The notes below the pieces were generated by a model. That model was given only the letters and a program-made list of their open reading frames with translations, was not told where the DNA came from and did not search any database. Both the position numbers and the translations under genes were made by a program. Below are positions 14,453 to 33,470 of a stretch of DNA of 41,096 bases, piece after piece. Origin of the DNA: Planctomycetota bacterium. Its GTDB lineage: Bacteria > Planctomycetota > Planctomycetia > JALXBF01. The first letter of the stretch is position 1. Every line of letters begins with the position of its first letter. The DNA lies in assembly GCA_026991575.1 (NCBI GenBank), contig JALXBF010000158.1, positions 1 through 41,096 of the forward strand, in the 5' to 3' direction.

Positions 14453-15553
14453 TCAGAACAGTTCCTGTTCCTCTGCTGCGTTCGCGCTGAGTGCCAGCGG
14501 GCCTTCCGGCAGGACGTCACCAGGGGCCAGCGAGATGTCGTCCCAGGCCAGTGAGGCGCCTAGGCGGTTGGCTCGGTTGGCGTAGATGCTATCGCGCGAC
14601 GCGAGTGCTTCAGGCGTAACCAGGAAGCCGACGTGCAAGTCGGCGTAAAGGGCATTCTGACCCTGGCCGCCATGGTTGTGGGAATTGGCGGTGGGCAGCC
14701 AGGCACCGGTCAGGTCCATCGGCGGCCGGTCTGCCACCAACACCTGGGCCGATGCGGCCTTCAACGTTGGCCCGTAGTAGGTGCCGTCGACCAAGTACCC
14801 GGTGGAGAACGCATAGCTGCCTGCCGCTGCCCGCAGCAGTTTGCGGAGCTTCTCACCGTCGGCACTGGCCCTGGCGGTGCGCAGTTGGTCTGTCGTCACG
14901 GCCAGAGGGGGGCCGGAGTCGCGATCACCCGGGCAGTACAGCGCCAGGCGGTCGCCAAGATAGCCGTGTTCAATCAGTGCCACCGGCTGGATGGCCGCCG
15001 GTGCTCCGAGGCCGCCGGACCAGGTCGTCTGGGGCAGCGCGCCGTTGAACTGATCGGCGTACACGGCCAGCGCAAGGCCGACCTGGCGCAGGTTCTCGCG
15101 GCAAGCCGCCTGCCGGTAGTACTCCCGCACGCGGGTGATGGCCGGAAACAGCAGCGCGCTAACAACGAATGCCAGGACGAGGGCGACGGCCAGATCGAGC
15201 AAGCGAAACCGGGTATGTGTCAGGCGGGATCGGGTGGCGAACGAGGGCGAGTAGGGGAAAGCACACCGATCGGCCGCGTCCCGCATGTACACCGTCGCGA
15301 TCGTGCGATGAAGCAGGCGCTCCGGAGGCGGCACCTCCGGATCGGCCTCGAAGAGACTCATGATCTGCAGAGTGCGGTCGAGCGACGCCAGCAACTCCGG
15401 GTTGCTCGCGACCGCTTCACGCACCCGCTTGGCCTCCTTTTCCGGAAGCCAACCGGCGGCGTACGCGGTAATGTCCTCCTCGGTTACCGGCTGAGCTGCT
15501 GGCGCGGGCCGCTGGTTGCCGGGGTCATTCGCAGGCTTCTTCCAGTTGGTCAT
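14453..15553 (-). CDS. Transmembrane anti-sigma factor fused to a prepilin-like (DUF1559-type) domain
   Basis: A 366-residue fusion. Residues 24-90 read like a zinc-less anti-sigma domain (EEDITAYAAGWLPEKEAKRV). Residues 114-165 carry one transmembrane helix whose sequence copies a type II pseudopilin N-terminus: RFRLLDLAVALVLAFVVSAL stands where [20 protein letters not shown] is usual, followed by FPAITRVREYYRQAACRENL and RQVGLALAVYADQFNGALP. The C-terminal domain continues like DUF1559 with a degenerate H-x-DG-type end (NALYADLHVGFL). Asp120 replaces the pilin Glu5 and the prepilin cleavage Gly is absent, so it should stay membrane-anchored. The gene overlaps its ECF sigma gene by 29 bases. 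Inferred role: N-terminus binds the sigma factor in the cytoplasm and the pilin-like part senses outside the membrane. Confidence 0.75.
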   Translation of the reverse strand: MTNWKKPANDPGNQRPAPAAQPVTEEDITAYAAGWLPEKEAKRVREAVASNPELLASLDRTLQIMSLFEADPEVPPPERLLHRTIATVYMRDAADRCAFPYSPSFATRSRLTHTRFRLLDLAVALVLAFVVSALLFPAITRVREYYRQAACRENLRQVGLALAVYADQFNGALPQTTWSGGLGAPAAIQPVALIEHGYLGDRLALYCPGDRDSGPPLAVTTDQLRTARASADGEKLRKLLRAAAGSYAFSTGYLVDGTYYGPTLKAASAQVLVADRPPMDLTGAWLPTANSHNHGGQGQNALYADLHVGFLVTPEALASRDSIYANRANRLGASLAWDDISLAPGDVLPEGPLALSANAAEEQELF

Positions 15554-16205
15554 CGCCTGACCGCTCCTCAGCAGCCTGGATCTCTTCGGACGCGCCGTGT
15601 TCGGCTTGCCACATCTGCCCCAGGCGCTGGACGGCCGCGTGCAGGCGGGACTTGACCGTCCCCACCGGGATATTCAGTGCCTCGGCAATCTCGCGCTGCT
15701 TCAGCCCCTGGTGATACGCCATGATGACCACGGCACGCAGATGGCCGGGCAGCCGCTGCACGGCAGCGCGCAGCCAGAGGCGTCGCTCTTCCTGGTAGAG
15801 GTTCCCCAGCGGGTCGGTCGGTTCCGCGACCAGCGAAGCAGCAAACGAGGTGGCGTTTCCGTCGCCATCCTTGATGTCTGCATCCAGGCTGGCCGCGTTG
15901 TGCCGCTTCTGACGCCTTAGCAGATCGATCGCCTGGTTGGTGGCGATCGTGTACAGCCATGGTCGCAGCGGGCGTCCTTCCTGGTAGAGGTGCTTCTTCA
16001 CGTGCAATTGCAGGAATGTTTGCTGGAAGGCATCCTCCGCCAGGACCGGATCGCCGATGTAGCGTCTCAGGTAGTTGTATAGCTCGCAGCCGAAGCGTGC
16101 GACCAGTTCGTCGAAGGCGGCTCGTTGACCGTCACGATACGCCAGGAACAACGCCTCGTCGCTGAGCGACGCGAACCGTTGCCGATCTTCGCCTGGGTGC
16201 GCCAT
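15525..16205 (-). CDS. ECF RNA polymerase sigma factor
   Basis: A 226-residue extracytoplasmic-function sigma factor that would direct RNA polymerase to a specific regulon. Region 2 is clear (FDELVARFGCELYNYLRRYI, DAFQQTFLQLHVKKHLY, RPWLYTIATNQAIDLLRRQK), followed by a linker of about 45 residues and region 4 with a helix-turn-helix (LPGHLRAVVIMAYHQGLKQR then EIAEALNIPVGTVKSRLHAA). A short acidic tail (SGDDQLEEACE) is added at the C-terminus. The fused anti-sigma gene overlaps its 3' end, so the two are co-translated and the downstream protein is its likely inhibitor. Such genes often drive their own promoter; the upstream region contains two copies of GATAACGC. The start at 16205 has a weak AGGGCG. 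Confidence 0.9.
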   Translation of the reverse strand: MAHPGEDRQRFASLSDEALFLAYRDGQRAAFDELVARFGCELYNYLRRYIGDPVLAEDAFQQTFLQLHVKKHLYQEGRPLRPWLYTIATNQAIDLLRRQKRHNAASLDADIKDGDGNATSFAASLVAEPTDPLGNLYQEERRLWLRAAVQRLPGHLRAVVIMAYHQGLKQREIAEALNIPVGTVKSRLHAAVQRLGQMWQAEHGASEEIQAAEERSGDDQLEEACE

Positions 16206-16537
16206 GGTATACGCCCTGCCTTGTCGATAAGTTCAACCAGACAACCCTGCCGGATAACGCCTGGCAAGAACCGAAGCCGAATAACCGGAAGACGATAACG
16301 CAATCACTTTAGATTGTCCTCGCTCGGCCACCGCGCGTCAAGCGAGTTGCTCGATTGGAGCCCCGGACCTGAGACGGGTTGCGCGCCGTCAGCGCGGCGG
16401 CCGTCGATCCGCGTCGGAACGTCCTGATGGCGGAACATAGAGCTTCCCAAGCCCAGCGCCGGACGGCGTGGGGCGTGTGAAGTGATGCCAATCTTAGGTG
16501 GGGACGGTGGGCGTGCAGTTGGCCGCGGTGCAGCCGC
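16206..16537. promoter_or_regulatory. Upstream region of the ECF sigma gene with a direct repeat
   Basis: About 330 bases with no gene. Two copies of GATAACGC, read on the plus strand, lie at 16253-16260 and 16294-16301, 41 bases apart (close to four helical turns) and within 100 bases of the sigma start. They could be regulator or ECF-promoter elements. No clear -35/-10 pair could be assigned. Confidence 0.35.
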
Positions 16538-18325
16538 TTACGTGACCACGCGGCCCCAGCGCAAGTTGCGGGCCAGCTTTCGGCGCGCGAATGCCTCGAT
16601 GGCGCGCCACCATCGCTTCCACTCGTCGTCGGCCAGCCCCTGGGGCAAGTACGCCCGCAAGAACCTCAACGCCTCGGTTGATGTCACGTTCGCCACCGCC
16701 CGGGCGCTGAGCAGCAGGCGCGCGATGTTCTGCACACGACGGCGGTGGGGCAGGTGCCGCCAGACCTGGAGCCCGGCCAGATCAATGACGTAGAGCTCAG
16801 CGATCTTACCGCCCTCGCCTGCGACCACGATCCAGTTCGGAAACTTCAGGTCCCGGTGCGACAGGCAGCAGCGGTGCAGGCGTGCAACTACTCGGCCAAG
16901 GCGCTCTGCGAGCTCCCAGCGCCGCTGCGCGGTTGCCTTCGGATCGAGTTTACTCAGCGTTCCTTGCACGTACTCCACCAGCGTCTCCGCACCCTCGATG
17001 AACTCCGTCATCAGGTACCCTTCGTCGGGGATTCCCCACCGCCTCGTCTCCAGGAACAGCAACGGGCGCGGCGTCGCAATGCCCCGGATGCGCAGGGCAT
17101 TTGCCCCGCGCCAGGACCTCAGTCCGGGGCTCCGGTACAGCAGTGCACGCAGGCGGTCCAAGGGCTTCGAGCATCGGAACCGCTTCCACAGCACGCTCAT
17201 CCGCTGGCCATCGGCCAGCATGACCTCGGTGCGGACGACCGTTGACGAGGGGGAGCTCTTCAGTGTCTGTCCCTGTGTCAGGAGCCGATCCGGTTGCGCC
17301 ATCAGCTCACGGACCACCGACGGGGGCAGATCCCGCGCAGCGTGCGCGTGCACCTTGCGGGAATACATGAAGTAGAAGCGGCGGTTCTCACCGACGCACT
17401 GTTCGTCGCGCTTCCACCAGCAGTATCGAGCGTACTGCCAGAGGCGTTCCTCTAGCCAGGCGGCGGTCTCCTCGGGCCGGCGGCCAAGTTCCGGGCGGGC
17501 TGCCAGGTAGCCGGCTAGGAACGCGTACCGCTCCGCTGCCGTCGTGTACTTCAGGACAGAAACACCCAGCTGCAGCAGGTTCCGCACCGTTGCCGACCAG
17601 GGCAGTGGGCCACGTCGCCACCGTGTGCTTAACAGGTCGATTAGGAAGACGTCGCAGTCAGCGGGGCCGAGGCGAACCAGGAGGTTCCCGGCATGCAGGT
17701 CGCGGTGGTCCAGACCGGCACGGTGAGCTTGGGCGAGCAATTCGACGACCTTGCCCAGCACCAGCCGGCGCAGCCTTGGCCGGTGAGCGGACGGGCCCGC
17801 CAACAGGGCATCCAGCTGGCATGTGTCGGGCTCTTCGAGCGTGACCAGGTAGCTGTCGGCTCGGACCGGTCCGAGTTGTCGCCAGCCTACGGCCACGGGA
17901 ACCAGCGTGCGCACGCCTGCCTGCAGCGCCCAGTACAGCCGATGCCATTCACGGACGGCGCGCGGGCCGAGCAGATTCGCGTTCAGCCACGCACGGATAT
18001 CCGCTGCCCGGTAGTGCTTCACGTAGTAGCCGGTTGGCCCACAGCTGACCCGGTACACGGAGCGGTGGCGACCGTGTTTGATTCGGATCACGCCTGCTCG
18101 GTCGGGCGCGATCAGGGCTGGCACCACTGCTTCGCGGACCAGTTGCTCGAAGCCGCTGCGGATCAACCAGCGCATCCCGTAGTGGTCGGCCTGCACTGTT
18201 TCGACCGATTGGTCGGGTCGGTGCAACCGCAGGTGCGTCCTGCCCCGTGTGGCGGTGAGTTCCCTGGGGCCCGGCGGCGCGTCCTGGTCAGGCAGCTTGT
18301 GTCTGTGGGTTGCGGGTGTTGGCAT
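16538..18325 (-). CDS. Tandem lipopolysaccharide-kinase-like protein (two kinase domains)
   Basis: A protein of about 595 residues with two eukaryotic-kinase-fold domains of the Kdo/WaaP (RIO-like) lipopolysaccharide kinase type. Domain 1 (about residues 60-320) has GRHRSVYRVSCG, the lysine in YYVKHYR, the catalytic loop HRDLHAGNLLV and the metal-binding VFLIDLL. Domain 2 (about 360-595) has the lysine in VLWKRFR, the loop HRDLKFPNWIV and YVIDLAG. Both sets of catalytic residues look intact. Such kinases phosphorylate lipid A core sugars at the inner membrane. The start is uncertain: ATG 18325 overlaps the upstream glycosyltransferase gene by 38 bases, and ATG 18175 (MRWLIRSGF) is an alternative. 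The overlap implies co-translation in envelope polysaccharide synthesis. Confidence 0.75.
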   Translation of the reverse strand: MPTPATHRHKLPDQDAPPGPRELTATRGRTHLRLHRPDQSVETVQADHYGMRWLIRSGFEQLVREAVVPALIAPDRAGVIRIKHGRHRSVYRVSCGPTGYYVKHYRAADIRAWLNANLLGPRAVREWHRLYWALQAGVRTLVPVAVGWRQLGPVRADSYLVTLEEPDTCQLDALLAGPSAHRPRLRRLVLGKVVELLAQAHRAGLDHRDLHAGNLLVRLGPADCDVFLIDLLSTRWRRGPLPWSATVRNLLQLGVSVLKYTTAAERYAFLAGYLAARPELGRRPEETAAWLEERLWQYARYCWWKRDEQCVGENRRFYFMYSRKVHAHAARDLPPSVVRELMAQPDRLLTQGQTLKSSPSSTVVRTEVMLADGQRMSVLWKRFRCSKPLDRLRALLYRSPGLRSWRGANALRIRGIATPRPLLFLETRRWGIPDEGYLMTEFIEGAETLVEYVQGTLSKLDPKATAQRRWELAERLGRVVARLHRCCLSHRDLKFPNWIVVAGEGGKIAELYVIDLAGLQVWRHLPHRRRVQNIARLLLSARAVANVTSTEALRFLRAYLPQGLADDEWKRWWRAIEAFARRKLARNLRWGRVVT

Positions 18326-31169: not shown

Positions 31170-31208
31170 GACTGCGTGCGGGTCGGGCCAGTGCAGGAGC
31201 TAACCGTG

Positions 31209-32582
31209 ATGCCGAAGGGTAGTACGAGAACGGAGCGGTCGCTACGTCGCGACGCCGAACAGATCTGGCGGGCAGCCCTCGGGGCCGTGGACGCATACAC
31301 GCTGGTCCGCGAAAGCCTTTCCCACAGCCGCGGCGTGCTACGCGTCGGCGACGGGCACAGGATACGGCTGGGGGAGAATGCCAGCGTGATCGTCGTCGGC
31401 GCCGGCAAGGCCGGTGCTGCGATGGCCCGGGCCGTCGAGGACGCGCTAGTCGATCTCGTGCGCAGTGGCCGACTCACCGGGTGGGTGAACGTACCGGACA
31501 ACCAAGTGGAGCAACTGCGTGCGATCCGGCTGCACCCGGCTCGCCCGGCAGGCAAGAACGAGCCGACGGCAGCCGGGGTCTTCGGCTCAGAACGGATTGA
31601 GCGACTGCTAATGGAAGCCGGACGAGCGGACGTGGCGCTCTGTCTGATATCAGGTGGCGGGTCGGCACTATTGCCGGCGCCGGTCGCAGCGATTTCACTT
31701 GAAGAAAAACAGCGGGTGACGGCACTGTTACATCGAGCCGGTGCGACGATCGAAGAGATGAACGCTGTACGCAAGCACCTGTCGCGGCTGAAGGGGGGCC
31801 GACTGGCTCAGCGGTTCCGTGGCCGTCTCCTGTTGAGCCTGATCATCTCCGACGTCGTGGGTGACCCGCTGGACGTGATCGCCTCCGGGCCGACGGCTCC
31901 GGATCCGACCACGTTTGCCGACGCCCTGGACGTGCTGAAGCGGTATGACTTGTTGGACGAAGTTCCCCCCGCGGTGGTTCAATTCCTTAAGGATGGCATT
32001 GCCGGAAGGGTGCCTGAGACCCCGAAGAAGCTGCCGCGTCGCGTGCACAACCTGGTCATCGGCAACAACCGTACGGCGTTGGACGCAGCCGCCCGGGAAG
32101 CGCGCCGGCTGGGCTACCGCGTGGTCGATCTCGGCGCATTCATTGAGGGTGAGACGCGCGAGGTGGCGCGCGCGTTTGCCGGCATCGTTCGCTCGCTGCT
32201 GCGCGATCGCAAGCCTGCCACATCGCCCGTCTGTCTGCTCAGTGGTGGCGAGACAACCGTTACCCTAACGCCGCACCACGGTCTTGGCGGCCGCAACCAG
32301 GAATTCGCGCTGGCCGTGGCTCACTTCCTGGGCGAGCAGCTGATGCGGAGGGGGGTCGTATGTCTTGCAGCAGGCACGGACGGCGAAGACGGGCCAACGG
32401 ACGCCGCGGGGGGACTGGTCTCTGCCGGGGTGCTGCGGCGAGCCGCCCGGCTGGGGCTCAGTGCCCAGGAGGCACTGGCTCGTCACGACAGCTACCATTG
32501 GCTGGCGCAGAGCCGGGGCCTATTCGTCACGGGCCCAACAGGAACCAACGTCACGGACGTGCGCGTGATCCTCGTAGCCTAG
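31209..32582 (+). CDS. Glycerate 2-kinase (GckA/TtuD type, MOFRL)
   Basis: A 457-residue kinase that phosphorylates D-glycerate to 2-phosphoglycerate. The two-domain form is clear: an N-terminal GCK domain with VIVVGAGKAGAAMARAVEDA, the glycine-rich SGGGSALLPAPV (about residues 148-159), HLSRLKGGRLAQRFRG and SDVVGDPLDVIASGPTAPDP. The C-terminal MOFRL domain has LLSGGETTVTLT, GGRNQEFALAVAHFL, AAGTDGEDGPTDAAGGLV and TGPTGTNVTDV. ATG 31209 has AGGAG nine bases upstream; a GTG at 31176 would add 11 residues. It could serve serine, glycolate or tartrate use. Its 3' end abuts or overlaps the convergent NYN gene depending on the frame read there. Confidence 0.9.
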   Translation: MPKGSTRTERSLRRDAEQIWRAALGAVDAYTLVRESLSHSRGVLRVGDGHRIRLGENASVIVVGAGKAGAAMARAVEDALVDLVRSGRLTGWVNVPDNQVEQLRAIRLHPARPAGKNEPTAAGVFGSERIERLLMEAGRADVALCLISGGGSALLPAPVAAISLEEKQRVTALLHRAGATIEEMNAVRKHLSRLKGGRLAQRFRGRLLLSLIISDVVGDPLDVIASGPTAPDPTTFADALDVLKRYDLLDEVPPAVVQFLKDGIAGRVPETPKKLPRRVHNLVIGNNRTALDAAAREARRLGYRVVDLGAFIEGETREVARAFAGIVRSLLRDRKPATSPVCLLSGGETTVTLTPHHGLGGRNQEFALAVAHFLGEQLMRRGVVCLAAGTDGEDGPTDAAGGLVSAGVLRRAARLGLSAQEALARHDSYHWLAQSRGLFVTGPTGTNVTDVRVILVA

Positions 32583-33470
32583 GACCGGCGCTTCTTCCGC
32601 GCCTTTTTCTGGCTCTTCTTTTTCTTCTTGCTCTTCTTTTTTTTTCTTCTTCTTGCTTTTCCTCTTCGTCTTGCTCGTCCTCTTCGCCTTGGCCTTCTTC
32701 TTCTGTTTCTTGGCCTTCTTCCCTTTCGGGCCTGACGCAGGTTTTGCTTCGTGTTGCTTCTTCGAGCCGGGCTGCGGGTTGGTCTTGACCTGGGGAGCGA
32801 CTCCTTCCACAGGGTCGCCCGCCGTCCGGTACGGGGTCGGCCTGCTGGGTTGCTTCTCTGAAGGCGATTCCTCGGCCGAGTCCGGTTCCTCGCTGTCGCG
32901 CTGCGAGACGTCTGCCGTTGCGCTCGGCCGGTCCCCGGCTGTCTCGTCCGGTGGCATGCCGCCTGTGTCAGGCTGGCGGTAGAGGTTCATGTAGCGGTCG
33001 ATTTCCGCCTTAGTGAACGGGCCTTCGGGCTTTTCCGCTTCGCTCAGTTCCTGATCCACGCCGCCGGTCTGCGCGCCGCTCCGCAGCTGGCGCACGAACT
33101 CCTGGCTGGTGCACACCTTGGCCTTTCTTCGCCGCGCCACATCGCGGATCCGTCGGTCTGAGCTGACGACCACCAGGTGGCGGGGGGCGCTATCCTGCTG
33201 AATCAACTGGATGATGACGTCGTCTGCTTCCGGAGCATCGATTGCGTTGATGATGTGCAGGCCGTAGCGTTGCTCGCGCCGCGGAGCCCACAGCGGTCGC
33301 TGGCGGGCGTCAAAGACGACTGTGACGCGGCCCGTCTGGCATCGGCGGAGTGCCCCGGAGAGTGTCTGCAGGAACCGGTCCAGCTCCTGGTCGTCGGGAG
33401 GCTGGTCCCGGCCTGTCCGGCGCGGCATCATGACAAAGAACAGGTTGAAGCCATCGATCAGATAACGCAC
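32520..33470 (-). CDS. NYN/YacP-like nuclease with Lys-rich tail; probable frameshift at an A9 run
   Basis: A NYN-domain (PIN-like) ribonuclease of the YacP type: MRYLIDGFNLFFVMMP with a metal-binding Asp6, RVTVVFDARQRP, GLHIINAIDAPEADDVIIQL and HLVVVSSDRRIRDVARRRKA (residues 1 to about 125). YacP proteins are thought to cleave mRNA or rRNA. The C-terminal part is acidic then very Lys/Arg-rich (KAKAKRTSKTKRKSKKKK). As written, the frame runs through nine A residues (minus strand, 32637-32645) into an acidic tail overlapping the glycerate kinase gene by 63 bases, giving 316 residues. With one A fewer it continues as a lysine tail (KKSKKKKKSQKKARKKRRS) and stops at 32579-32581, one base before the neighbour's end. 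That version is more plausible. Confidence 0.8.
   Translation of the reverse strand: MRYLIDGFNLFFVMMPRRTGRDQPPDDQELDRFLQTLSGALRRCQTGRVTVVFDARQRPLWAPRREQRYGLHIINAIDAPEADDVIIQLIQQDSAPRHLVVVSSDRRIRDVARRRKAKVCTSQEFVRQLRSGAQTGGVDQELSEAEKPEGPFTKAEIDRYMNLYRQPDTGGMPPDETAGDRPSATADVSQRDSEEPDSAEESPSEKQPSRPTPYRTAGDPVEGVAPQVKTNPQPGSKKQHEAKPASGPKGKKAKKQKKKAKAKRTSKTKRKSKKKKKKEEQEEKEEPEKGAEEAPVLGYEDHAHVRDVGSCWARDE

Follow-up and report, generated by a model that had tools for sequence, protein, structure and literature searches.

Runs of adenines within bacterial genes are known to give rise to more than one product. In Thermus thermophilus, transcriptional slippage occurs at a run of nine A residues (A9) in the dnaX gene (PMC1088944, PMC5009743). 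Homopolymer frameshifts in Blochmannia and Buchnera are possibly rescued by slippage (PMC3017870), and indels in an 8A repeat can be bypassed (PMC3812077). A further system of relevance here is the Bacillus subtilis protein Rae1, also called YacP, which is a translation-dependent endoribonuclease (PMC10100781).

Here we describe an A9 tract in a gene for a YacP-like NYN-domain protein (the NYN protein) from a planctomycete, located within a stretch of 41,096 nucleotides that is referred to below as the window. The tract lies in a repetitive, Lys-rich coding tail, at the point where the Lys reading is left, and, judged by its sequence, the site resembles a mutable tract whose length has changed by one base.

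Results

The NYN gene and its three possible tails

The NYN gene converges on a glycerate 2-kinase-like gene. The features of the region, in window coordinates, are as follows.

31176-32582, plus strand: convergent glycerate 2-kinase-like gene (DUF4147 and MOFRL, from profile matches), with its stop TAG at 32580-32582
32520-33470, minus strand: NYN (YacP-like) ORF as written, 316 residues, with a GTG start at 33470 and an acidic C-terminus
32579-32581, minus strand: stop TAG of the Lys frame, having two bases in common with the kinase TAG
32582-32636, minus strand: remainder of the Lys-tail coding sequence if the run has one A fewer, ending one base before the stop, GC3 17/19
32607-32641, minus strand: 18-nucleotide tandem repeat downstream of the tract, 1.9 copies (Tandem Repeats Finder), AGC at 32632 and 32614
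32637-32645, minus strand: A9 tract as read from the sequence, exit point from the Lys reading and candidate slippage site, one of three A9 runs in 4.96 Mb
32645-32691, minus strand: 18-nucleotide tandem repeat upstream of the tract, 2.6 copies (Tandem Repeats Finder), AGC at 32675 and 32657

The coding strand of the NYN gene is the minus strand, and the nine A residues at 32637-32645 thus appear as nine T on the plus strand. In the encoded protein, a YacP-type NYN domain leads through a low-complexity linker into a tail rich in Lys. Its residues 4-147 match the NYN_YacP profile, PF05991, with E = 7e-13 and a score of 49.3 bits (gathering cut-off 24.6). Membership of the YacP family suggests that the protein is a ribonuclease, and the Lys tail may aid the binding of RNA or the ribosome. 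A search of PDB sequences with the NYN protein gave weak matches, mostly to flavivirus NS5 (best E = 0.017), which were taken as chance.

With the run as written, the protein has 316 residues and the tail turns from Lys-rich to acidic after the tract, ending KKKKKKEEQEEKEEPEKGAEEAPVLGYEDHAHVRDVGSCWARDE; the ORF then shares 63 bases with that of the kinase. Removing one A shortens the protein to 296 residues with a Lys-rich C-terminus, KKKKKKKSKKKKKSQKKARKKRRS. Both outcomes had been pointed out in the initial annotation and are confirmed by the sequence and its ORFs, as is the TAG at 32579-32581 that ends the shorter form and leaves only the stop codons overlapping. The shorter tail had also been described there as purely Lys/Arg; it is indeed rich in Lys, but it is not pure, since S, Q and A are present. 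One A more gives a third form, absent from that annotation, with 306 residues, an Arg-rich tail and a stop at 32551. In the convergent kinase, residues 352-461 cover positions 1-106 of the 106 in the MOFRL profile, a full-length match implying that the 3' end of this gene is intact.

The ancestral frame of the tail

Which of these frames did the tail originally follow? The Lys-rich tail is an 18-nucleotide tandem array (window 32607-32718, minus strand) with units that read roughly KKSKKK. The AGC triplets within it are spaced by 18, 25 and 18 bases, and it is the interval of 25 that spans the A9. When 18-mers upstream of the tract were compared with those downstream, the twelve best pairs all lay at phase offset 1, where the mean identity was 9.5/18, as against 6.3 and 4.9 in the other phases. 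Repeat copies that appear once to have been in mutual frame are now one base out of frame across the A9, and this loss of register, unlike the occurrence of the A9 itself, does not look like chance.

In the genes sampled from this genome the median GC3 is near 0.77, and AAG accounts for 78% of Lys codons. Beyond the tract, the Lys frame has a GC3 of 17/19, the written frame 9/21 and the third frame 6/21; the corresponding synonymous-codon scores, over about 20 codons, are +9.6, -4.2 and -28.7 bits. The repeat and GC3 arguments are partly dependent, since AAG repeats always place G third in the Lys frame. Furthermore, an A run that has G at either end and lies within Lys codons can only have a length of 3n+2, so that A9 is impossible in an unbroken Lys reading. 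A fourth-order coding model that includes amino-acid composition gave 8.5 versus 8.4, and because it is neutral between the Lys frame and the frame as written it was left out as support for the former. The stop of the Lys frame abuts that of the kinase. The 63-base overlap of the written form is the third-largest among 67 convergent overlaps sampled, three of which reach at least 60 bases; these statistics favour the Lys frame but are only suggestive.

The Lys frame is very probably the ancestral continuation of the NYN tail. This was the first part of the proposal made in the initial annotation, and it is well supported by the repeat phase, GC3 and the run-length argument. By repeat phase and GC3, the frame differs across the run by the one base of the indel, as in a homopolymer frameshift.

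Homologues of the NYN protein

The NYN homologues were compared at the level of the class, the window's genome being the sole member of its order among the genomes compared. These class-level homologues have just the NYN domain in common with the NYN protein. None of the 54 ends in a Lys-rich stretch (the final 30 residues contain no more than 10 K/R), the longest A run in their tails is 7, and the 18-nucleotide tail array was not seen in those examined. No close relatives in which the tract length could be compared were found in scans of GTDB contigs with the NYN protein or in scans of viral contigs, and a scan with the kinase gave matches of at most 46% identity. Of the signs by which slippage sites are recognised, the NYN gene has a run of about nine or more A/T in coding sequence, in the A9 at 32637-32645; conservation of the A run in orthologues was not seen among the 54 class homologues.

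A9 runs in the genome and the dnaX site

The assembly (4.96 Mb, 191 contigs) contains three A9 runs and none longer, compared with about 1.8 expected under a first-order model, which is no clear excess over chance. One of the three lies in the dnaX gene of the same genome (contig C36, positions 16117-16125, within the dnaX ORF 14846-16558; locus L060, G000:C36:6500-26000). Read literally, this gene encodes a tau-like protein of 570 residues, and a shift either way at the A9 brings in a stop after no more than about six codons, so that gamma-like proteins of 428-429 residues result. Across the dnaX genes of the class, taken from 49 other genomes and this one (loci L145-L194), A9 or A10 is found at the same linker position in 34 of 50; for 27 of these 34, each of the two shifted frames reaches a stop within ten codons. 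This conserved A9/A10 is likely to be a slippage site that yields a gamma-like subunit. The available passages of PMC3711429, the match among the papers searched on dnaX, transcriptional slippage and planctomycetes, contain no description of this site.

The remaining 16 of the 50 dnaX genes have no A9 or A10 in the linker (L155, L157, L160-L163, L168, L173, L175, L178, L179, L187 and L191-L194), implying that the site has been lost or replaced in places. Every sampled member of genus g6 (three) and three of the four of genus g12 belong to this set, in which L191 has A8 and L157 has A7. The third A9 of the genome, at C185:8388-8396 on the minus strand (L061), is located downstream of a transposase-like reading frame. 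Since none of the frames that cross it has a good coding score, it was rejected as a slippage gene.

The conservation of the dnaX tract, together with the nearby stops in its shifted frames, suggests slippage by RNA polymerase at A9 in this group. The likeness to Thermus dnaX that the initial annotation had drawn is strengthened by this A9 in the genome's own dnaX, with stops close by in both shifts and conservation in the class. Slippage at the NYN A9 is plausible by analogy, and a polymerase that slips at A9 would produce a mixture from the NYN tract whatever its origin.

Assembly quality

When 678 kb of the same genome was scanned for frame switches, no internal frameshift linked to a homopolymer came to light. 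Of 60 deletions planted as a control, the scan recovered 51, although only 27 of the 60 also passed a stricter criterion on stops. A candidate at L112, by a run of seven, reads as two overlapping genes and was rejected as a frameshift. At the scan's default switch cost, the NYN site itself gave no frame-switch call. The clean scan argues against a generally indel-prone assembly, although it does not settle the case of one individual site belonging to so rare a class.

Discussion

The explanation that we favour, with a probability of about one half, is that an ordinary one-base indel in an A8-like tract is real and that all three tails leak from the gene by slippage. The NYN tail would have evolved as a Lys-rich, 18-nucleotide repetitive extension that passed through an A run of length 3n+2, such as A8. 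The gain of one base, most simply by replication slippage, would then have turned this run into A9 in the present genome, with the result that its literal reading would depart from the Lys frame into an acidic tail overlapping the convergent kinase. NYN transcripts of mixed length would be expected, since A9 is long enough for RNA polymerase slippage and the lineage apparently uses A9/A10 in dnaX. The Lys tail would be encoded by transcripts that have lost one A or gained two, the Arg tail by those that have gained one, and the acidic tail by those with A9. The sequence itself shows the tract, its three frames, the repeat that is out of phase, the codon bias and the dnaX site; we infer that the DNA truly contains the extra base, that slippage takes place at the NYN site, and that the cell tolerates the mixture without making use of it. 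Indel and slippage, between which the initial annotation had offered a choice, are compatible and non-exclusive readings. The A9 slippage it envisaged is plausible, but a programmed or functional use in the NYN gene is not borne out, none of the 54 class homologues having the tail or the tract.

Could the extra base instead be an artefact of sequencing or assembly? The real run would then keep the Lys frame, the consensus would be one base too long, and a single Lys-tailed protein of 296 residues would be made. Every argument for the Lys frame, whether from repeat phase or codon bias, applies equally to such an error, for which homopolymers within low-complexity repeats are the likeliest spot, and the assembly is in 191 contigs from an unstated sequencing platform. 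Against this, the 678 kb scanned contain no other homopolymer-linked internal frameshift and the dnaX A9 stays in frame, although runs so long are too rare in the genome to settle the matter; we regard an artefact as possible, if somewhat unlikely. It is doubtful that the acidic tail is the native and sole product, the Lys frame being a mere look given by shifted AAG-rich DNA. This is the literal reading of the sequence, the composition-aware coding score does not disfavour the acidic frame, and many class homologues have an acidic C-terminus (a comparison of acidity made without alignment); the repeat phase and GC3, however, point to the Lys frame, and a convergent overlap as large as 63 bases is unusual.

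Programmed transcriptional slippage, in which selection keeps the A9 so that one NYN gene gives Lys-, acidic- and Arg-tailed forms, would find a precedent in the conserved dnaX tract of the lineage, and dnaX and NYN hold the only two A9 runs of the genome that lie within recognisable genes. The number of A9 runs is nevertheless near chance, and the class homologues have neither the Lys tail nor an A run of this length. Moreover, the acidic form ends in residues encoded antisense to the coding 3' end of the kinase, which leaves selection little freedom to act on them, and we consider this explanation improbable. The mixture might also be made by ribosomes sliding or frameshifting on AAA codons, rather than by RNA polymerase. 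E. coli ribosomes do slide on iterated AAA codons, but the minimum run reported in an E. coli cell-free system is 11 A (PMC4363877), and a simple -1 shift at the NYN A9 would lead to the Arg tail, not the Lys tail; sliding of this kind thus seems very improbable here.

A real indel would make the NYN gene a case, in a GC-rich genome of 5 Mb, of a frameshifted gene that could be partly rescued by polymerase slippage; the best-described cases of this kind come from AT-rich endosymbionts. If there is an assembly error only, the annotated C-terminus of the NYN protein is wrong. Should programmed slippage prove true, tails of opposite charge might set how much of the protein binds RNA or ribosomes. 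Because most of the genomes sampled from the class have A9/A10 in dnaX, slippage can be tested directly in this group.

The known systems resemble the NYN locus in different respects. With B. subtilis Rae1/YacP it shares the YacP-type NYN domain of family PF05991, by profile match, and from this its activity is predicted. With T. thermophilus dnaX it shares a sense-strand A9 late in the coding sequence, from which each frame leads to a different product. The shifted dnaX frames truncate the protein, however, whereas a shift in the NYN gene exchanges one tail chemistry for another. It is the dnaX gene of this same genome that has a layout like that described for T. thermophilus (PMC1088944), and the A9/A10 of dnaX is conserved in the class, in contrast to the NYN tract. 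The homopolymer frameshifts of Buchnera and Blochmannia occur in AT-rich, reduced genomes with more than 100 long A tracts, compared with three A9 runs and a GC content of 65% here. Beside them the rescue at the NYN site is putative, and the likeness lies in the event itself: a one-base change in the length of a poly(A) tract, within an otherwise intact gene, that could potentially be corrected in some of the mRNAs (PMC3017870).
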